Origin: a bacterium
Lineage (GTDB): Bacteria; Hydrothermota; Tepidihabitantia; B3-TA06
Direction: 5' to 3'
Assembly (NCBI GenBank): GCA_012517375.1
Contig: JAAYVC010000032.1
Coordinates: 1-38,811 of the forward strand
Length of the DNA stretch: 38,811 nt
Shown here: one piece after another, positions 1-8,664 of the stretch
Numbering within the stretch: position 1 is the stretch's first letter
Layout: every line of letters begins with the position of its first letter
Program-made: the position numbers and the translations under genes
Notes under the pieces: generated by a model
Seen by the model: only the letters and a program-made list of their open reading frames with translations
Told to the model about the DNA's origin: nothing
The model's database searches: none

Positions 1-966
1 ATGGATAGGCATCCAAATGCTGCAAGAGCAGGAATGTTTCAATCACTGTGGATTATTGGGCTGCTTCTTTTGTCCTGCGAAGCGGAACGAGATAATCCTT
101 ATGACCCTAAATCACCCCTTTACAGGGATGAAGGGGCATTGGTCGGTTGGGTAAAAACACGAACCGGTAAGCCCGTACCGGGTGTTGTCGTCGAAATAAG
201 CCCTCATAATAAGTTCAGCGTAACCGATCTTGATGGTCGCTATGAAATGAAGTGCCTTAAATCAGGTGAAAGCAAGGTTTTTGCCTCTTTAAAAGGCTAT
301 TCAAGGGACTCAGGGGAGGTGACCATAAAGATATTAAAGACGGATACCTTGAATTTCGTTCTCGACTGCCTTCCGCAATTCGAACATTGCTTGGTCAGAA
401 CTTACAATATAATCAACAAGAACAATCAGGCTGAATTCGAGACAGCCGTTGCCGATGGGGACGGTGTTGTTGATATAGATTCTGTTTCATGTTGGGTGGA
501 AGATATTCTGGATACATTCAGGCTTGAATATGACGACGGCGTTTACAAGAAAACAATTCAAGCCAAAACGCTGCCGGGAAATACCCTAGAGTCTCTTGCA
601 GGCAAGGACGTTTTTTTTATTGCCTACGACAAGGCTGGCTCTTCCTCAGTTTCAAGTCCATGCGTGATAACCAGAATCATTGACGAAATCCCAACGCTAG
701 TTGAGCCTGTGAATTTTCAGATTGTGGATAAAAATCCTACACTTGTGTGGAATAAAACCCTTACTTCCTTTCCTTATTCGTGCAGAGTGGAGGTGATGAG
801 TACGCAATTGGGTGTAATATGGTCAAGGGACGGCATTTCTTCGAATGACACGACCGTTACAGTTGATGAAAACCTTGAAGCCGACGACTACTCATGGGTG
901 GTCTGGATAGTAGATGAATACGGGAACCATTCCAGATCGATAACTGCCGGATTCAAGGTAAAATGA
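1..966 (+). CDS. Lipoprotein with carboxypeptidase-regulatory-like domain (5' end possibly outside window)
   Basis: The reading frame is open from the first base, so the true start may lie upstream. A more natural start is Met12 (position 34), which gives a short lipoprotein signal ending in LLLLSC with the lipidated Cys at residue 26. After it comes a DNPYDPKSP linker and, from about residue 45 to 115, a CarboxypepD_reg-like beta-sandwich (pattern GxVxxxxGxPVPGVxVxI followed by TDxDGRYE). The rest (about 120-321) is beta-rich and I cannot assign it, although residues 235-320 resemble an Ig/Fn3-type module. It is probably anchored at the cell envelope as a surface or sensor protein. Its stop overlaps the next start (ATGA at 963-966), so it is co-translated with the sigma-54 activator and may be a sensory partner of that regulator. 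Confidence 0.7.
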   Translation: MDRHPNAARAGMFQSLWIIGLLLLSCEAERDNPYDPKSPLYRDEGALVGWVKTRTGKPVPGVVVEISPHNKFSVTDLDGRYEMKCLKSGESKVFASLKGYSRDSGEVTIKILKTDTLNFVLDCLPQFEHCLVRTYNIINKNNQAEFETAVADGDGVVDIDSVSCWVEDILDTFRLEYDDGVYKKTIQAKTLPGNTLESLAGKDVFFIAYDKAGSSSVSSPCVITRIIDEIPTLVEPVNFQIVDKNPTLVWNKTLTSFPYSCRVEVMSTQLGVIWSRDGISSNDTTVTVDENLEADDYSWVVWIVDEYGNHSRSITAGFKVK

Positions 967-2450
967 CCCGCAAGAATCTTGAAGTCCTGAATAAGGTTAC
1001 AAAGACCATAAATTCAATAATGGATTATCCTGTTCTTTTAGAAAAAGTAATGGACCTTGCGCTTGAAACCGTCAACGCCGAGCGGGGAGCGATAATCCTC
1101 GAGGACGCTAACAATCTTGAATTCGCGGTCGCTCGCGATATCTCCAAAGAGAACTTAAAAGCGCTCGCCGATCTTTCGTCCAGCGTAGTCCGGAAGGTTA
1201 TAACAGAAGGTAAACCGATACTTCTGCATGATGTACAGGACGACCAGCGATTCAAGGAGGCAAAAAGCGTAGTCAAGCACGATATCAGATCGGTTTTGTG
1301 CGTTCCCTTGACGTCAAGGGGCAAACTCTCGGGCGTTATCTATGCAGACACCAGAAGCAGAAGAGGCGTTTTTACGAGCGAGGAGCTTGAGTTCCTGGCT
1401 GCATTTTCAGATCAGGCAGGTATAGCCATTGAAAATGCAAGACTCCACAGCATGTTAGCCCAGGAAAACGTGCATCTGAAACAGGAACTCATGCACGAGA
1501 ATCTGTTTTCGAACATCGTAGGCAGAAGCGCCTCGATGCAACGGGTATTCGATATCCTGCGAAAAATCCTGAATTCCAACGTACCGGTGCTTATTTCAGG
1601 TGAAACTGGCACAGGAAAGGAACAGGTTGCCCGGGCGCTTCATTACAACGGCCCAAGGAAGGACGCTCGATTTGTTCCTATATACTGTGGCTCATTGCCT
1701 TTAGCTCTGTTTGAATCCGAGCTTTTCGGCTACAAAAAAGGGGCGTTTACGGGCGCAAGCCAGGATAAAAAAGGTTTCTTTGATGAGGCAAACGGAGGAA
1801 CACTCTTTCTTGATGAAATCACTGATATCAGCCCGGACGTTCAGGCAAAGCTCTTGCGGGTCTTGCAGGAGCAGGAGTTCTTTCGCATAGGCGATACTTC
1901 TCCGAGAAGGGTTGATGTAAGGGTTATTTCAGCCACGAACAAGAACATCGAAACGGAGATCAAGAATAACCGTTTCCGCGAAGACTTATTTTACAGATTA
2001 AACGTAGTTCGCGTTGAACTTCCGCCTTTAAGGGAACGCAAAGGCGATATTTCACTGCTTTCAGGCCATTTCCTGACCAAGTCTGCTAAAGAGTCTGGGA
2101 AAAAAACGGAAGGGTTTACTCCCGAGGCTTTAGAACTTATGGAAAACTACTCCTGGCCCGGGAACGTCCGTGAACTGGAAAACATCGTTTCAAGAGCCGT
2201 TGCACTAGCCTCAAACCGCTTAATCACACCGGATTTGCTGGGCATTACGCAGCCGCAAAAGAAATCGCCGCCCGACCCAGGCTTTGACAAATCCTACAGA
2301 GAGGCGTTAAAGCATTTTGAGAGTGAGTATATTCTGGATGTTCTCGAGAAATGCAAAGGGAACCGGAAGCTTGCAGCCCAGAGGATGGGTATATCGCTCA
2401 GAAACCTGCAGTACAAACTCCGGGATATTCAGGATGAGGAAAAAGCTTAA
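963..2450 (+). CDS. Sigma-54-dependent transcriptional activator (GAF-AAA+-Fis)
   Basis: This is a bacterial enhancer-binding protein of the NtrC class, 495 residues long. The N-terminal GAF domain (about 10-165) is the sensory module; there is no receiver domain. The AAA+ core (about 180-410) has Walker A GETGTGKE near residue 213, the sigma-54-contacting GAFTGA loop at 260-265 and Walker B GGTLFLDE after it. The C-terminal Fis-type helix-turn-helix (about 450-490) contains KGNRKLAAQRMGISLRNLQYK. All motifs needed to remodel RNA polymerase-sigma54 are intact. It overlaps the lipoprotein upstream (ATGA) and the kinase downstream (17 bp), forming a translationally coupled operon. Three -24/-12 promoters occur within 4.2 kb downstream, so those genes are its probable targets. 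The GAF ligand is unknown, and control by the adjoining kinase is inference. Confidence 0.95.
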   Translation: MTRKNLEVLNKVTKTINSIMDYPVLLEKVMDLALETVNAERGAIILEDANNLEFAVARDISKENLKALADLSSSVVRKVITEGKPILLHDVQDDQRFKEAKSVVKHDIRSVLCVPLTSRGKLSGVIYADTRSRRGVFTSEELEFLAAFSDQAGIAIENARLHSMLAQENVHLKQELMHENLFSNIVGRSASMQRVFDILRKILNSNVPVLISGETGTGKEQVARALHYNGPRKDARFVPIYCGSLPLALFESELFGYKKGAFTGASQDKKGFFDEANGGTLFLDEITDISPDVQAKLLRVLQEQEFFRIGDTSPRRVDVRVISATNKNIETEIKNNRFREDLFYRLNVVRVELPPLRERKGDISLLSGHFLTKSAKESGKKTEGFTPEALELMENYSWPGNVRELENIVSRAVALASNRLITPDLLGITQPQKKSPPDPGFDKSYREALKHFESEYILDVLEKCKGNRKLAAQRMGISLRNLQYKLRDIQDEEKA

Positions 2451-3978
2451 GAACTACCGTATCGTTAGGGAGGTTTCGAGTTCACTGGGTACCACTGTCT
2501 ATAAGGCCGTTCAGGAACCGCTCGCCAGGTACGTAAGCCTTAAGGTAATGCACGAGAAACTTGGGAAGGACGATGAGATGGTGCAGAGATTCGAGCGTGA
2601 GGCCAGGATTTGCGCGAACCTGATTCATCCAAACATCGTAAGGCTTTTCGATTACGGAAGGTGGAGGAATGAGTATTACATCGTCCAGGAGTGGATTGAT
2701 GGTATGTCTTTAAGAGAACTGCTCCAACGAGGACCTATGCCTCTCAACATCGGCGTCTATCTAATAAGAGAACTTACCGCAGGACTAGCTTATGCACATT
2801 CACAAGGCATAGTTCACCGGGACATTAAACCTGCGAATATACTTATAGGCTTTGACGGTTCTGTCAAGATAGCCGATTTCGGCGTGGCACGCTCCTCTTT
2901 TCTTCCCGATCTGACTATAGATGGCACGCTTATAGGTACTCCTGCTTACAGCTCCCCCGAGCAGATAAGATGCGATAAGGTTGACGAAAAAGCGGACATA
3001 TTCTCCCTTGGGGTGGTTGTTTACGAATCGCTTTCAGGCGCAAATCCTTTCGAGGCGGATAATTACTCGCAAATTGTTGAAAAAATCCTTAAGAAAAGAC
3101 CTGAACCTTTATCGAAGGTAAATCCTTCAGTGCCTGCGAAGGTTTCGAAAGCGGTACAGAAGATGCTTTCAAAAACCGCTCAAAAACGTATCGGGGATCT
3201 TCACGAACTCCGGAGAATTCTCGATGGTACTAAAAGCTTCAGGAATATCGAAGCCCAACCAGAAGACATGGCTTTCTATCTTAAAGAACCTGAGGAGTCA
3301 GTTAAACCTCCTCTGATTAACAAAAGAAAAACCATGTGGCAATTTTTCGTGTATCCGGTGCTTGGAGCCTGCGTTTTTCTTCTTCTCGTTTTTTTCCTTG
3401 CAGGTCTTTTTCCAGCCAGGAAAAACACAAGAAACAATGATCGTTCGGATACTCCGTATTTGTCGGCCGATGCCGGTTCCGATGCGCAAAAGATGATACA
3501 AAAAACAACAGTCAATGATAACCGGACACTAGCGCAGTCCACGGCCGCAAGAAACTCTTATTTGAGATTCCAGGTTAAACCATGGGCAAGGGTCTACGTT
3601 GACGGTTCATACTTCGAGACCACGCCTACAGGAAGGCTCGTCTCAGTTGTTCCCGGTACACACAGGCTAAGCTTCAGGCACGATTCCCTGCCGACTTACG
3701 AGGAGGTCGTAAGCGTCCTGCCAGGAGAAACACTGGCGGTTAATGTAAATCTCGAAGCCGAACTGGGCTGGCTGTACGTGTCCGTCCGGCCTTGGGGTGA
3801 GGTCTTCATTGACGGTTCACTGCAGGGCACTTCGCCTTTTCAGAAACCTTTTCGTCTTAGCGCGGGAAGTCACAAATTGATGGTTCTTCATCCCTCATAT
3901 CCTCAGTACGAAAGCGAGATTCACATCTCAGTACAAGACACTCTCAGGATTAACGTTACATTGCAGGATACAATCTGA
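2434..3978 (+). CDS. Membrane serine/threonine protein kinase with two PEGA domains
   Basis: The start chosen is ATG 2434, which lies inside the end of the activator gene and places the kinase domain at the N-terminus (514 residues); an upstream in-frame ATG at 2317 would read antilogous coding sequence. The Hanks-type kinase domain covers about residues 8-270: the catalytic Lys is K37 in YVSLKV, the catalytic loop HRDIKPAN starts at H128, DFG is at 148-150, and the activation loop ends in GTPAYSSPE. The glycine-rich loop is degenerate (SSSLGT). One transmembrane helix (about 305-328) is followed by two PEGA repeats (about 377-445 and 449-514; motifs VYVDGSYFETTP and VFIDGSLQGTSP), predicted to face the periplasm. 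Its overlap with a GAF-type sigma-54 activator suggests a phosphorylation-linked switch (inference). Confidence 0.92.
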   Translation: MRKKLKNYRIVREVSSSLGTTVYKAVQEPLARYVSLKVMHEKLGKDDEMVQRFEREARICANLIHPNIVRLFDYGRWRNEYYIVQEWIDGMSLRELLQRGPMPLNIGVYLIRELTAGLAYAHSQGIVHRDIKPANILIGFDGSVKIADFGVARSSFLPDLTIDGTLIGTPAYSSPEQIRCDKVDEKADIFSLGVVVYESLSGANPFEADNYSQIVEKILKKRPEPLSKVNPSVPAKVSKAVQKMLSKTAQKRIGDLHELRRILDGTKSFRNIEAQPEDMAFYLKEPEESVKPPLINKRKTMWQFFVYPVLGACVFLLLVFFLAGLFPARKNTRNNDRSDTPYLSADAGSDAQKMIQKTTVNDNRTLAQSTAARNSYLRFQVKPWARVYVDGSYFETTPTGRLVSVVPGTHRLSFRHDSLPTYEEVVSVLPGETLAVNVNLEAELGWLYVSVRPWGEVFIDGSLQGTSPFQKPFRLSAGSHKLMVLHPSYPQYESEIHISVQDTLRINVTLQDTI

Positions 3979-3981
3979 TTA

Positions 3982-3998
3982 TGGCACGGAAATTGCTT
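3982..3998 (+). promoter_or_regulatory. Sigma-54 (-24/-12) promoter
   Basis: The sequence TGGCACGGAAATTGCTT matches the consensus TGGCACG-N4-TTGCW at every position, with GG (3983-3984) exactly 12 bp from GC (3995-3996). The start of transcription is expected near 4008. It lies immediately after the kinase stop codon and reads into the 4052 and 4799 genes. Confidence 0.85.
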
Positions 3999-4010
3999 AT
4001 AAATAATATA

Positions 4011-4052
4011 ATGAAGCAATTGAGCGTTTTAATGAATCGGAACGTGTCGTAA
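4011..4052 (+). CDS. Possible 13-codon leader ORF coupled to the next gene
   Basis: An ATG at 4011, only about 3 nt after the predicted sigma-54 transcription start, opens a 13-residue frame (MKQLSVLMNRNVS). Its stop TAA overlaps the ATG of the 4052 gene (TAATG). No clear Shine-Dalgarno precedes 4052, so termination-reinitiation at this overlap would explain how that gene is translated. The small peptide itself has no recognisable function. It could be chance. Confidence 0.3.
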   Translation: MKQLSVLMNRNVS

Positions 4053-4780
4053 TGTACGCCTTTCTGTTTGCATTCTCTCTTGTGGGACTTGCACTTGAGA
4101 ACGAAACGTTGAAGGAACTTGAAGAGCTCTATTATGAAGGTTCGTACGAGAGGGTCATAGAGATAACCGAAAGTTTAATCGCATCCGATAGCAGTATTGA
4201 AAAGGATATGCTTCTTGAATTGCACAAATACAACGGATTTTCCTTCGTTGCACTTGAAAAAAGGGATTCGGCAAAAAAGGAGTTCAAGGCTATCCTGGAA
4301 CTGGAGCCCCGATTCTTGCTTGACCCGCAGATGGTTTCTCCTAAAATAATTGAGATATTTGAGGAGGTCCGGAGCGAGATGCCGAAGATAGCATCCATCC
4401 CTAAGGATTCTCTCGAGGTTGAGTTTCCTGCAGATACCTCAGATAAGAGAACCATACTTGATTACAGGAAAGCGTTGCTTTTCTCGACCGCTTTCCCGGG
4501 TGTAGGACAGGCGTATTCGGGACAAAGACTTAAGGGATGGGGATTCATAGCAGGTGAGGGACTATGTATAGCCGGCTTTATTGTTTCACAAGTTTATACG
4601 GATAAAACTCATGATGAGTATCTCAAGGCTACCGAACCGGCTGATATTGAAGCTAAGTACCGGGTATACAACAACTGGTATAAAGCAAGAAACGCTCTTG
4701 GCGGATTATCCATCGGGATTTGGTTCTCGGCTCCGCTTGAACTGGTTCTTTTTCCGCCAAAGTGGGCAAAAAAACGTTAG
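4052..4780 (+). CDS. TPR-like / DUF5683-type membrane protein
   Basis: The protein has 242 residues. It begins with a short hydrophobic signal (MYAFLFAFSLVGLAL). A helical region follows (about 20-110) that reads like one to two tetratricopeptide units (ELYYEGSYERVIEITESLI; GFSFVALEKRDSAKKEFKAIL). The C-terminal half (about 140-242) has the FPGVGQAYSGQRLKGWGFIAGEG pattern typical of DUF5683, a membrane domain found in FCB-group envelope proteins, with two hydrophobic stretches. The function of that family is not established. It is the first full gene behind the sigma-54 promoter at 3982 and lies 18 bp before the surface-protein gene, so the two are likely co-transcribed. The DUF5683 assignment is from motif memory. 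Confidence 0.7.
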   Translation: MYAFLFAFSLVGLALENETLKELEELYYEGSYERVIEITESLIASDSSIEKDMLLELHKYNGFSFVALEKRDSAKKEFKAILELEPRFLLDPQMVSPKIIEIFEEVRSEMPKIASIPKDSLEVEFPADTSDKRTILDYRKALLFSTAFPGVGQAYSGQRLKGWGFIAGEGLCIAGFIVSQVYTDKTHDEYLKATEPADIEAKYRVYNNWYKARNALGGLSIGIWFSAPLELVLFPPKWAKKR

Positions 4781-4798
4781 CTTAGAGGTTTGTGTATT

Positions 4799-6139
4799 AT
4801 GAATGAACTTACAGGCAAAAAGTCAGAGATAAATGGAATATCTCCGGCAATACGCAACAGAATGAGGGGCATGAAACGCTTGGCGGTGATCGTCGGCGTT
4901 CTGGCTTCTGTTTCTTTCGCGGCTTCCGCCGCCATATCCGGGACCATTTACGATATCGTGACAGGCAAGGGCCTCTCCGAAAAAGTGGTCTTTGCTGAAA
5001 AAATCGATTCCCTTCCTCGTGACTCAATAATCGACCCCATGGATTCCTTGTATTTCAGCACGGTTACAAACGAAAAAGGCGATTACAGTTTTACCGGGCT
5101 TCCTCCCGGAATGTATTCCGTTTATGTAAATTCCCCTAATTACTTTTCTTATGGATTTCCTGAGGTGCTAGATATCAATGACGGCATAGACCAAAGTGGT
5201 ATAGATATTGCCCTTAATTCCCCTGACAGGGACACTTTCAGCGTTTCGGGCGAGGTTCAGCTTCTTGAATCCTTCGGATATCCCTGGTTCGGAGAAGTTA
5301 TGGTTTTCTCAAATAATGGTCAGATTATAGGAGGAATACCAATTTTTTCTCTGGATTCAATACCCTCGAAACCTGCAGATACGGTTCCATCCATCCAATC
5401 GTATTCCGTGGAGTCTCTTCCTCCTGTGGCATGTAAGTTCGAAAGCTTCGTTTACGGTTATCTTCCGCAGTATTTTGATCACGTATATGAAGCCGATACA
5501 GCGGCATTAATGGTAAGGCCTGGAACCGGAGAGATAGATTTCCTGCTCGAAATGGGTACGCCTGACTCCTTCTTTTCCGGAGAGATATCAGGGAATATCC
5601 GGGGCACTCGCGGCCCGCTGCCCTACGCATCTGTTTACGCAAAAAAAGGAACCAAGCTGGCTTATGGAACCATAAGCGATTATTACGGTTTTTACTATAT
5701 TTTCGGCCTTGAACCGGGTACGTACACAATTTACGCCACACGGCCCGGATACTACACCGGACAATACAAAAACAACATCACGGTTGCAGATTCGCCTGTT
5801 TCTGACATTAATATAACGCTTACGCCTAAAGATGCAGTCGAAGAACCGGAAGCATCCCTGCATGATGATTTTGGACTCGAGGTCTTCCCTAACCCTTTCG
5901 CTTTAAACGCAACAATCCGCTATTTGTTAACCCGCCATAGCCGGGTTTCGCTCAAGGTTTACGACGTCACGGGCATGCTGGTAGGAAACCTCTTTGAAGG
6001 TAGCCAGCCGCCCGGTAAATATGATTTCAGCTGGAACGGAACAGATTCAAGAGGCCAACCGCTTCCGCCGGGAGTTTACTTCATAAGACTTGAGCATAAT
6101 GGTTATTCCTGTTCAAAAAGCCTTGTGGTAATAAGATAA
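4799..6139 (+). CDS. Secreted surface protein: CarboxypepD_reg repeats and C-terminal FlgD/Por-like sorting domain
   Basis: I chose ATG 4799, preceded by AGAGG at 4785-4789; TTG 4790 and ATG 4871 are alternatives. The signal peptide core is MKRLAVIVGVLASVSFAASA, which begins at 4871, so from 4799 the N-region is unusually long. Two carboxypeptidase-regulatory-like sandwiches are visible, one after the signal (AAISGTIYDIVTGKGLSE) and one near residues 255-340 (GEISGNIRGTRGPLPYASVYA), with a less conserved segment between. The last 85 residues form a sorting-type domain: EVFPNPF, VSLKVYDVTGMLVG, WNGTDSRGQPLPPGVYFIRL, ending in KSLVVIR. Such tails direct export and surface attachment in FCB-group bacteria. 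It is related to the 6722 gene over its whole length, and both sit under sigma-54 promoters. Confidence 0.85.
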   Translation: MNELTGKKSEINGISPAIRNRMRGMKRLAVIVGVLASVSFAASAAISGTIYDIVTGKGLSEKVVFAEKIDSLPRDSIIDPMDSLYFSTVTNEKGDYSFTGLPPGMYSVYVNSPNYFSYGFPEVLDINDGIDQSGIDIALNSPDRDTFSVSGEVQLLESFGYPWFGEVMVFSNNGQIIGGIPIFSLDSIPSKPADTVPSIQSYSVESLPPVACKFESFVYGYLPQYFDHVYEADTAALMVRPGTGEIDFLLEMGTPDSFFSGEISGNIRGTRGPLPYASVYAKKGTKLAYGTISDYYGFYYIFGLEPGTYTIYATRPGYYTGQYKNNITVADSPVSDINITLTPKDAVEEPEASLHDDFGLEVFPNPFALNATIRYLLTRHSRVSLKVYDVTGMLVGNLFEGSQPPGKYDFSWNGTDSRGQPLPPGVYFIRLEHNGYSCSKSLVVIR

Positions 6140-6164
6140 TACCCTTTTCTATCAATAGAGCAGA

Positions 6165-6180
6165 GTGCAATTTTTTGCAC
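6165..6180. promoter_or_regulatory. Candidate enhancer (activator-binding) dyad, copy 1
   Basis: GTGCAA-tttt-TTGCAC is a perfect 16-bp inverted repeat, 216 bp upstream of the sigma-54 promoter at 6381. A second copy with the same GTGCAA-N4-TTGC core lies at 6541. Further TGCA-type half-sites follow directly (6181-6199). The position and symmetry fit a Fis-type activator site; binding by the 963-2450 protein is inference. Confidence 0.5.
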
Positions 6181-6206
6181 GTGCAGGCAAGAAATTGCAT
6201 ATAAAT

Positions 6207-6249
6207 GGGGTATACTGAAATCACAAAAATTTAGTCCCCGAATTTTTTT
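6207..6249 (+). terminator. Probable intrinsic terminator after the 4799-6139 gene
   Basis: GGGG (6207-6210) can pair with CCCC (6236-6239), extended by an imperfect CTgAAAT/ATTTAG helix, and the hairpin is followed by a run of eight T. The stem is interrupted, so strength is uncertain. Confidence 0.45.
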
Positions 6250-6297
6250 TGTCTCAATAACATTCATGTTCCATGACTTGAAAATGTAACATTAAAC

Positions 6298-6361
6298 ATT
6301 GCATAACTTGCATTCTTAACTTCATCTTGACATTTTTCTTCGTAGTACGATTCACTTGCAT
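6298..6361. repeat. Direct repeats of ACTTGCAT upstream of the second sigma-54 promoter
   Basis: ACTTGCAT occurs at 6306-6313 and again at 6354-6361, with a related ATTGCAT at 6298-6304. They resemble half-sites of the GTGCAA-N4-TTGC dyads and end 20 bp before the -24 box at 6381. They could be weaker activator sites. Confidence 0.3.
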
Positions 6362-6380
6362 TTCGCATTTTCTCCGTGAG

Positions 6381-6396
6381 TGGAACGATTCTTGCT
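6381..6396 (+). promoter_or_regulatory. Sigma-54 (-24/-12) promoter
   Basis: TGGAACGATTCTTGCT matches TGGCACG-N4-TTGCW except for one C-to-A change; GG and GC are 12 bp apart. Expected transcription start is near 6407. No CDS starts for more than 300 bp downstream; a terminator-like hairpin lies 40-70 nt after the start. Confidence 0.75.
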
Positions 6397-6406
6397 TATA
6401 ACGTAC

Positions 6407-6480
6407 TAATCTTAATCTTCTCCTACGCTTGATCCTTACAATAAGCCTGGGATCTCTACTAACAGAGGTCCCAGCATTTT
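6407..6480 (+). ncRNA. Candidate sigma-54-dependent small RNA (about 75 nt)
   Basis: The segment runs from the predicted start of the 6381 promoter to the hairpin at 6447-6474 and its T-rich tail. No ORF with a ribosome-binding site fits inside. The alternative is an untranslated leader that is read through into the 6722 gene. This is a prediction from signal placement only. Confidence 0.35.
6447..6480 (+). terminator. Intrinsic terminator hairpin
   Basis: CTGGGATCTCT (6447-6457) pairs with AGAGGTCCCAG (6464-6474) over 11 bp with one G-T pair and a 6-nt loop, followed by CATTTTGTTG. The stem is strong; the T-tract is short. Confidence 0.6.
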
Positions 6481-6540
6481 GTTGCCTTCAAAAGATATTT
6501 TTTCCCATTCGTCTTGTATATAGGTAAATTTATCCCGCAA

Positions 6541-6556
6541 GTGCAAGCAATTGCGT
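6541..6556. promoter_or_regulatory. Candidate enhancer (activator-binding) dyad, copy 2
   Basis: GTGCAA-gcaa-TTGCGT repeats the core of the site at 6165 (GTGCAA-N4-TTGC) and is nested in a wider CGCAA-N10-TTGCG dyad (6536-6555). It lies about 100 bp upstream of the -24 box at 6643, the usual distance for sigma-54 enhancers. Confidence 0.5.
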
Positions 6557-6642
6557 CAATCTTGTGAGTGAATAATATAAAGCGAAACCGCAGTTACGGT
6601 TTAAGCCTCATAAATGTTTAACTTGTCTTGATCCTGCAGTTC

Positions 6643-6658
6643 TGGCACGGTTATTGCT
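6643..6658 (+). promoter_or_regulatory. Sigma-54 (-24/-12) promoter
   Basis: TGGCACGGTTATTGCT is a full consensus match, GG (6644) to GC (6656) 12 bp apart. The transcription start is expected near 6669, giving a leader of about 53 nt before the ATG at 6722. Confidence 0.87.
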
Positions 6659-6721
6659 CTAAATGCGACTGTAAAGACTTCCGTGGGAGAAGAAAAAAAC
6701 ATTCTCGTAAAGGAGAAAAAG

Positions 6722-8233
6722 ATGAAAAAAACACTAATACTCTCAACGCTTCTGCTTTCGGCGAGTCTGTTTGCACAGACCGGTTCCATCTCGGGTACGA
6801 TAACCGACATGGTCACCGAGCAGCCGATTGAGGGAATAAAAGTCATACTGTCGGATGCTTATTATGAATACCCCTGGGACGATTCCATACCATGGGACGA
6901 CACGATACCCAGAGATACAATCTGGAACGATACTGTACCTATGCCAGGTACGCCAACGGATCCAACAGAACCGCTTTGCTGGGAAACCCTGACCGGCTCG
7001 GACGGTTCCTATAAATTCGATGAATTACCTGAAAGTTTTTATTCCGTTTACGTAGATGTTTTTCCCGAAGGATATGACCCTTTCGATCCTGACGATTCTC
7101 TTGATCCGAGGGATAGTTTGATAGACACCATTCCTTTCAAATACTATCCTGCGGTGTACCCCGAGTTGATAGAGCTTAGCGACGGAGAGGAAGCAAGCGG
7201 CATCGACCTCGCGCTTATTCCCTGGGGTTCGGATACGTGTTCTATTGCCGGAAAGGTTACCCTTGTCGATTATGTCGAGGATTCAAATAAGTTCTGGTGG
7301 GGCTGGGTTACCGTTTTTTCCAAAAACGGACAAATAATCGGCGGAGGATTCGTTGATCCCTTAACGTGGGGAGGAGATAGTCTGGATGACAGCATACCCG
7401 ACGGAATTCCGGGGTATACCTACTACTTTGTCAACTGGCTTCCCCCCGTCCAATGCTATGCAGTAGCCGAAGCGTGGGCGTATACATGCAATTTTGATTC
7501 ACTTAACCCCGGAAGAGACGAACCCGATTACGAATACTACTACCCTCAGTACTACGATCACGTCTACAGTGTAGAGGAAGCAACCCTTATTACGCCACTG
7601 AATCCTATACTTGACGGAATAGATTTCGACCTGGAGAAGGAACAGGGTGAACAGCAGCTTCTTGCAGCTGCATCAGGCAGCATCTCGGGACAGATACTCG
7701 GCGGTAAAGGCGAGATAGCCTATACAACCGTCTATGCAAAGAAGGATGGAAAAATCATAACCGGCAAGCTCAATAAAGATGGAACTTACACCCTCAATGT
7801 CGGACCCGGAACCTACGATGTATACGCATCCCGTCCCGGATACAAGACAGGCAAGTACGCAGGAAAGGTAACGGTTGCAGACAAGCCTGTTACTGGAATC
7901 AACATTTCGATGGTTTACGTTGCGGGAATTAATGAACCTACACCCGGTAACATCTCTCCCAAGCTTCTCATTCAGGCAAATACCGTATCTCGAGGCGCGC
8001 CTTCGGCTATAAGCTTCAGCTTGCCCGAATCAGGCAAGGTGTCGGTCAAGATATACGACGCCAACGGCGCTCTGGTTCGCACGCTTGAGCAACGCTCAGG
8101 CCAGGCAGGCGTTCACAGCCTTAACTGGGACTGGCGCGACGCTTCTGGAAGCCCGCTTGCAAGCGGCGTTTACTTCTGCCGAGTAGAGCAGAACGGCAAG
8201 TGCGCGAGCAAATCACTTGTACTAATCAAATAA
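6722..8233 (+). CDS. Secreted surface protein: Asp/Pro-rich insert, CarboxypepD_reg repeats, C-terminal sorting domain
   Basis: ATG 6722 has AGGAG at 6711-6715 and begins a clean signal peptide (MKKTLILSTLLLSASLFAQ); an upstream in-frame start at 6683 is unlikely. The mature 503-residue protein starts with a CarboxypepD_reg sandwich (GSISGTITDMVTEQPIEGIKV) interrupted by an acidic, Trp/Pro-rich low-complexity insert with repeated DDSIP/DDTIP/NDTVP units (about residues 45-85) and later DPxDPDDSLDPRDSL. A second sandwich follows at about 315-390 (GSISGQILGGKGEIAYTTVYA). The C-terminal 80 residues are a FlgD/Por-like tail (VSVKIYDANGALVRTL, SGSPLASGVYFCRVEQ, KSLVLIK). It is a longer paralogue of the 4799 gene. 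The Asp-rich insert could bind Ca2+ (inference). Expression is expected from the sigma-54 promoter at 6643. Confidence 0.88.
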   Translation: MKKTLILSTLLLSASLFAQTGSISGTITDMVTEQPIEGIKVILSDAYYEYPWDDSIPWDDTIPRDTIWNDTVPMPGTPTDPTEPLCWETLTGSDGSYKFDELPESFYSVYVDVFPEGYDPFDPDDSLDPRDSLIDTIPFKYYPAVYPELIELSDGEEASGIDLALIPWGSDTCSIAGKVTLVDYVEDSNKFWWGWVTVFSKNGQIIGGGFVDPLTWGGDSLDDSIPDGIPGYTYYFVNWLPPVQCYAVAEAWAYTCNFDSLNPGRDEPDYEYYYPQYYDHVYSVEEATLITPLNPILDGIDFDLEKEQGEQQLLAAASGSISGQILGGKGEIAYTTVYAKKDGKIITGKLNKDGTYTLNVGPGTYDVYASRPGYKTGKYAGKVTVADKPVTGINISMVYVAGINEPTPGNISPKLLIQANTVSRGAPSAISFSLPESGKVSVKIYDANGALVRTLEQRSGQAGVHSLNWDWRDASGSPLASGVYFCRVEQNGKCASKSLVLIK

Positions 8234-8313: not shown

Positions 8314-8348
8314 AATCAGGACTCTGCAAAGGGTCCTGATTTTTTTTG
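8314..8348 (+). terminator. Strong intrinsic terminator
   Basis: AATCAGGAC (8314-8322) pairs with GTCCTGATT (8333-8341), then eight T (8340-8347). It is a classical Rho-independent terminator for the 6722-8233 gene. Confidence 0.85.
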
Positions 8349-8378: not shown

Positions 8379-8501
8379 GGCCCCGAACCTAGTCAGATTT
8401 GACTTTTTGAAGTCAGGTATCATCTTATTTCGCCAAGCCAGAATTAAAGGTATGAATCAAGAATCGCGGTCTGGCTTTAATAAATGTAGTCCCAAATCAT
8501 G

Positions 8502-8604
8502 GTCAAAAGGGTGACAAAAATGGGACAGAAGATGGACAAAAGCCCCCCCAAAAGAGTGACAAAAGATGGACAGAAATAGGACAAAAGTTGGACAGAAAGG
8601 GACG
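8502..8604. repeat. Degenerate 11-bp tandem array (GACARAAnntG)
   Basis: GACA occurs at 8513, 8524, 8535, 8558, 8569, 8580 and 8591, with GACG at 8601 and a related GTCA at 8502. Almost every step is 11 bp; one 23-bp step carries a C7 insertion. The array is non-coding, in the 591-bp gap 8234-8824, which otherwise holds the terminators, hairpin and MITE-like element described separately. Confidence 0.7.
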
Positions 8605-8664
8605 CCTCTTGAGGTCAGAATTGGATATTAGTGATCAGATTTAGAAAAAAACGTCATGAACCAT

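Follow-up and report, generated by a model that had tools for sequence, protein, structure and literature searches.

A probable conserved sigma-54 module with a GAF activator, a PEGA-domain kinase and exported target proteins in the Hydrothermota

In a bacterium of the Hydrothermota (class Tepidihabitantia, B3-TA06), the genes for a sigma-54 activator and a Ser/Thr kinase overlap, and genes for two paralogous exported proteins with sorting tails (cpd1 and cpd2) follow on the same strand. The locus raises the question of whether these genes form one circuit, in which the kinase sets the activator and the activator drives the exported proteins from sigma-54 promoters. The window analyzed here is the whole of contig C32 (JAAYVC010000032.1; 38,811 nucleotides) of a 2.54-Mb, 97% complete genome assembly (GCA_012517375.1). 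An earlier note on this DNA had proposed that sigma-54, a kinase-coupled activator, and surface-sorted proteins form a self-contained module here, and gene order, box position, an enhancer palindrome, and natural kinase-activator fusions now support that proposal. We conclude that the window probably holds a conserved sigma-54 module, i.e., a regulator operon, sigma-54 promoters, exported targets, an enhancer, and an activator that is set by the kinase. The promoters, the module, and the class of its targets are well supported.

Sigma-54 promoters were sought with the pattern TGGCACG-N4-TTGCW, which has GG at -24 and GC at -12. The three boxes that the note had listed were recovered, two of them as full matches (positions 3982 and 6643) and one with a single change (6381). 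Sites with up to two mismatches were unremarkable in number within the window (8 observed, 4.7 expected). A scan of the whole genome, a check that the note had itself proposed, returned eight exact sites and none for the reversed control pattern, and another 17 sites had one mismatch. All eight exact sites are outside called genes. When the one-mismatch sites are counted as well, 22 of 25 are intergenic (P ~7e-18; intergenic means outside called genes of ≥100 aa, and 88% of the sampled DNA is coding). The rpoN gene, which was also looked for, is present in the genome. One of the one-mismatch boxes, on contig C88, is located 3' of a response-regulator activator and 5' of two glutamate dehydrogenase-like genes; it is an internal positive control that matches the classical nitrogen role of sigma-54. 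If the boxes were chance intergenic matches, the targets would be transcribed by a housekeeping sigma factor, and weak sigma-70-like matches do occur in the region, at chance level (17 found, 17.9 expected). This explanation is extremely improbable in view of the genome-wide excess over the control, the intergenic bias, and, as described below, the conservation of box position across families and the pairing of boxes with the enhancer.

The activator was used as a query against 60 relatives, and the surrounding genes were then inspected. The module reads lipoprotein, GAF activator, PEGA kinase, box, (Kelch protein), DUF5683 protein, box, and carboxypeptidase-regulatory-domain protein, and this order is kept wholly or largely in ~15 loci of the class. 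The lipoprotein-activator-kinase core is also contiguous in six more genomes outside the class (G088, G070, G080, G082, G078, and G079), with ~20 loci across the phylum in all, and full-length relatives of the lipoprotein were recovered throughout the phylum by a profile search. For box position we considered the 14 loci with a readable kinase end, and the same loci served as background. Five of them have an exact box between -10 and +70 relative to the kinase stop (chance 0.0002 per locus, P 7e-16), and nine have a box there with ≤2 mismatches and an intact GG/GC core (chance 0.0034 per locus, P ~1e-19). The window itself prompted this test, and the result is little changed when the window is removed. 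Two genomes of a single genus (G035 and G037) have neither rpoN nor detectable activators.

The likely binding site of the module's activator, as predicted from its distribution, is the palindrome GTGCAA-N4-TTGCAC. It is rare among 61 genomes. This genome has a single perfect copy, which falls in the module, in the 583 bp that separate cpd1 from cpd2. Three copies occur in G001, two of them at a single module locus, and G031 and G025 have two each (one each in the module). The 648 kb of examined DNA contain six perfect sites, five in module loci and all six intergenic, and in the module loci of three relatives the palindrome is 100–250 bp upstream of boxes. Seven of the eight perfect copies in this genome, G001, G025, and G031 have a box (≤2 mismatches) within 420 bp downstream, at 91–254 bp, compared with one of eight copies in other genomes (Fisher P 0.005). 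A weaker second copy at a spacing of 20 bp, i.e., two helical turns, was found in the window and in two other loci (L092 and L094). The full 12-base palindrome is informative, unlike the half-site dyad. When half-site dyads were scanned for upstream of all boxes, the only one returned was GCAA-N4-TTGC, in four regions and within the shuffle range, and this candidate was rejected.

Several observations weigh against the proposed module. Orthologous loci in G010, G048, G056, G088, and G078 lack a recognizable box after the kinase, and the promoter would therefore have been rewired or have diverged in part of the phylum. No locus has a copy of the palindrome near box 1 (that at 3982), so activation there would need ~2 kb looping or another site. 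The second locus of G001 (L093) has boxes and no enhancer palindrome, and in G007 the palindrome was found without the module, upstream of another box.

The activator matches the Pfam families Sigma54_activat (PF00158; 4.4e-68), GAF (2.3e-21), and HTH_8 (6.8e-11). With an AAA+ sigma-54 interaction domain in which Walker A (GETGTGK) and the GAFTGA loop are intact, and with a Fis-type helix-turn-helix (HTH), it is a bacterial enhancer-binding protein (bEBP). In 13 orthologues G260 and F262-T263-G264-A265 are invariant, and residue 261 is A or S (alignment A1). Its score against the NifA model TIGR01817 was 389.2 bits, short of the curated cut-off of 528.85; NifA is its top-scoring curated neighbor all the same, and the NorR cut-off is likewise not reached. 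The kinase (Pkinase, PF00069, 7.1e-49; PEGA, 8.2e-12) is of the Hanks type, with the catalytic K37, H128-R129-D130, and D148-F149-G150 invariant (alignment A2). Its PEGA stretches are on the opposite side of the membrane segment from the kinase domain, and the best curated match of the kinase part is NF033483, below the family cut-off. Open reading frames (ORFs), Pfam, and motifs thus agree with the note's description of a GAF-AAA-Fis activator with an intact GAFTGA loop, and the gene overlap with the PEGA Ser/Thr kinase that it had described amounts to 17 nt. The regulator operon comprises three or more genes, as a lipoprotein gene that is absent from the note lies upstream of the activator, its end overlapping the activator gene start by 4 nt (ATGA). 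The promoter of this operon is outside our view because the first codon of the lipoprotein gene is also the beginning of the contig.

What switches the activator can be approached through its domains and its neighbors. Of the seven activators encoded in this genome, four have a receiver domain; that of the module has none and carries a GAF domain, which makes a histidine kinase an unlikely switch. Single chains of ~1700 residues that combine Pkinase, AAA_16, TPR, GAF, Sigma54_activat, and HTH_8 (L110:6306-11483, L111:3796-8829, and L211:603-5753) occur in this genome (one protein) and in G001, where the genes are directly beside boxes. Given these natural fusions, the overlap, and the conservation of both genes, we favor a signal from kinase to activator, and the kinase probably acts on the activator by phosphorylation or in a shared complex. 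Alternatively, the circuit could be real without the kinase controlling the activator: the GAF domain would bind a small ligand of its own, and the kinase would be a co-transcribed envelope regulator of other proteins. NorR and NifA, for example, are GAF activators that respond to ligands or partners with no Ser/Thr kinase involved. NifA is the best curated neighbor by score (below its cut-off), and Pfam reported neither an FHA domain nor any other phospho-reading domain in the activator. However, the two genes are tightly coupled and overlapping in ~20 loci, and kinase, GAF, AAA+, and Fis parts are naturally fused in one chain in the same genome; we therefore judge this alternative unlikely.

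In the circuit that we prefer, with the kinase controlling the activator, a membrane kinase whose PEGA part faces outward would sense the state of the envelope, perhaps together with the lipoprotein, and would control how active the GAF activator is, either directly or via a ligand. Bound to the enhancer as a hexamer, the activator would open RNA polymerase with sigma-54 at each of the three boxes (3982, 6381, and 6643), and exported proteins would be made along with a short RNA. An envelope origin of the signal is inferred from the expected location of PEGA, the lipoprotein, and the targets. A more specific version is put forward tentatively, as a possibility that we somewhat doubt: the outward-facing PEGA kinase would directly phosphorylate the GAF activator, surface proteins and a small RNA would be made from the same enhancer, and across the lineage sigma-54 would be in broad use, for surface proteins, microproteins, and small RNAs.

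Two of the boxes had been thought to drive the sorting-tail paralogues. This stands for box 6643, which is directly 5' of cpd2 and is the only box directly 5' of a sorting-tail protein gene. It does not stand as worded for box 3982, which first serves the DUF5683/TPR protein, a conserved first or second target gene in the module, with cpd1 as the second gene. The likely start codon of cpd1 is the ATG at 4871. The sorting tails of both proteins score above the curated cut-off of 23 bits for TIGR04183, the type A sorting domain of the type IX secretion system (T9SS), and the genome encodes an SprA-like translocon (TIGR04189, 326 bits, cut-off 200), which together identify the two as T9SS cargo. 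Peptidase_C25 proteins, possible candidates for PorU, are also encoded. Sorting-tail proteins are enriched among box-served genes (4 of ~15, vs 88 in the genome; P ~0.002, a rough value that assumes a total of 2300 genes). Downstream of the cpd2 terminator and ahead of the next gene, positions 8500-8610 of the window contain short repeated phrases that are variants of gggtgacaaaaatgggacagaagatggacaaaag.

Box 6381 has no close gene start downstream. A terminator-like hairpin at 6447-6474 (11 pairs, -17.6 kcal/mol, with a T-rich tail) begins 40 nt past the predicted start, an 82-nt stretch folds far better than shuffles (z -4.1), and several other boxes of the genome and family have no ORF and a strong terminator within 65–200 nt. 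Given the hairpin with its tail, the folding, and the same layout at other boxes, a short RNA is the most economical reading, and the product of box 6381 is probably a terminated RNA of ~70 nt rather than cpd2 mRNA. The next gene on the strand is nevertheless cpd2, and the T-tract after the hairpin is interrupted (CATTTTGTT), as could be expected if the box were a second, distal cpd2 promoter and the hairpin a leader structure that is read through. The stability of the hairpin, the fold score, and the terminators behind other ORF-less boxes make this rather unlikely. The predicted short RNA (6407-6480) matched no Rfam family and was not found in the relatives' loci examined, and a search for a base-pairing target gave no specific one, with its pairing to the cpd2 ribosome-binding region ranking 92 of 196.

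Table 1 Features of the module and its surroundings in the window.
Feature	Position	Strand	Evidence or remark
Lipoprotein with CarboxypepD_reg domain, lipobox LLLLSC	1..966	+	ORF and Pfam; phylum-wide full-length orthologues, adjacent to the activator gene in most module loci
GAF-AAA+-Fis sigma-54 activator (bEBP)	963..2450	+	Pfam and 13-sequence alignment A1
Ser/Thr kinase, one transmembrane segment, two PEGA stretches	2434..3978	+	Pfam and alignment A2
Sigma-54 -24/-12 box 1, exact, TGGCACGGAAATTGCT	3982..3997	+	4 nt past kinase stop; predicted start ~4008
DUF5683-like protein, TPR-like N-part, C-terminal membrane segments	4052..4780	+	Pfam E 4e-4 (below Pfam cut-off), alignment A4
cpd1, exported, CarboxypepD_reg repeats, T9SS type A sorting tail	4799..6139	+	Pfam; TIGR04183 34 bits
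Predicted enhancer GTGCAATTTTTTGCAC, GTGCAA-N4-TTGCAC	6165..6180	.	No other perfect copy in this genome; box 6381 is 216 bp downstream
Degenerate second enhancer copy AGGCAAGAAATTGCAT	6185..6200	.	20 bp from the 6165 copy
Sigma-54 box 2, one mismatch, TGGAACGATTCTTGCT	6381..6396	+	216 bp downstream of the 6165 enhancer; predicted start ~6407
Candidate sigma-54-dependent small RNA	6407..6480	+	Hairpin 6447-6474 then CATTTTGTT
Imperfect enhancer copy GTGCAAGCAATTGCGT, 2 mismatches	6541..6556	.	102 bp upstream of box 6643
Sigma-54 box 3, exact, TGGCACGGTTATTGCT	6643..6658	+	Predicted start ~6669
cpd2, exported CarboxypepD_reg protein with sorting tail, cpd1 paralogue	6722..8233	+	ORF, Pfam; TIGR04183 31.2 bits
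Terminator-like hairpin ending the cpd2 unit	8314..8341	+	Hairpin search

Other boxes of the genome and family were recorded alongside those of the module. At C106:19132 (L051:7133-7250), L131, and L157, with G003 and G007 among the genomes, an exact box without an ORF is followed by a conserved ~90-nt RNA with a strong terminator, which is a candidate conserved sigma-54-dependent small RNA. The hairpin of this RNA, CCAAA-CCTCC-TTTGG, has an anti-Shine-Dalgarno-like loop, and at the corresponding locus of G007 (L157) a GTGCAA-N4-TTGCAC palindrome is 90 bp upstream. A second conserved box-driven RNA, with a purine-rich body and a GC-rich terminator (GGGGCGCTT...AAGCGCCTCC), was seen at C2:2021 (L047), L142, L149, L151, and L155, in five genomes of the family including G002, G004, G006, and G007. 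Exact or near-exact boxes at C118:17514 (L059:6515), L116, L122, L136, L140, L147, and L159 are 5' of the gene for a conserved microprotein of ~38 residues (MKLK..KEKE.LKKELIRKLEA.IRQA..ADAA..Y), and a terminator often follows that gene. At C10:3072 (L048), L118, L128, L148, L153, L156, and L162, a large exported protein (MSKKL...) has a clear TTGACA/TATACT-type promoter and, ~100 nt further upstream, a conserved box; dual promoter control is possible. On contig C87 two boxes (13351 and 13111; L041) are 3' of a response-regulator activator; the first is followed at 65–95 nt by a strong terminator, with CCCTCCTCCC in the RNA, and the second is 5' of a run of SpoIIAA-like proteins.

In Myxococcus, FHA-type activators are thought to be coupled to Ser/Thr kinases and not to histidine kinases. 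The FHA-domain sigma-54 activators of Myxococcus xanthus were reportedly the subject of work by Jelsbak et al. in 2005. The module resembles them in having a sigma-54 activator presumed to be tied to a Ser/Thr kinase, whereas here the sensor is a GAF domain, the PEGA kinase is in the same overlapping operon, and the targets are adjacent. With NifA and NorR the activator shares the order GAF-AAA+-HTH_8, the dependence on sigma-54, and an upstream palindromic enhancer (predicted here); unlike them, it is below both curated cut-offs and has a PEGA kinase partner, the enhancer GTGCAA-N4-TTGCAC, and exported-protein targets. The kinase is comparable to PknB/Stk1-type kinases (PASTA), with a cytoplasmic Hanks kinase, one membrane segment, and small outside repeats, but PEGA replaces PASTA, the score is below the family cut-off, and the gene is linked to a sigma-54 activator. 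At a broader level, the parts of Francke et al. 2011 (PMC3162934) considered here propose sigma-54 as a general controller of the bacterial exterior, through transport and synthesis of its building blocks. The envelope or exported targets of the module are in line with that view, and a kinase-activator-cargo module was not found in those parts of the paper. A literature search found no description of a PEGA kinase paired with a sigma-54 activator and no matching case of a kinase-controlled activator. The parts of the module are known, and their wiring was not found described in the searched literature.

The usual switch of a sigma-54 activator is a histidine kinase, a ligand, or a protein partner. 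Because the overlapping neighbor of this activator is a membrane Ser/Thr kinase, and natural fusions agree, the idea that a Ser/Thr kinase controls a sigma-54 activator can be tested directly here, with named proteins, an enhancer, and promoters. For a phylum represented here by mostly fragmented genome assemblies, the module offers a concrete surface-protein circuit.

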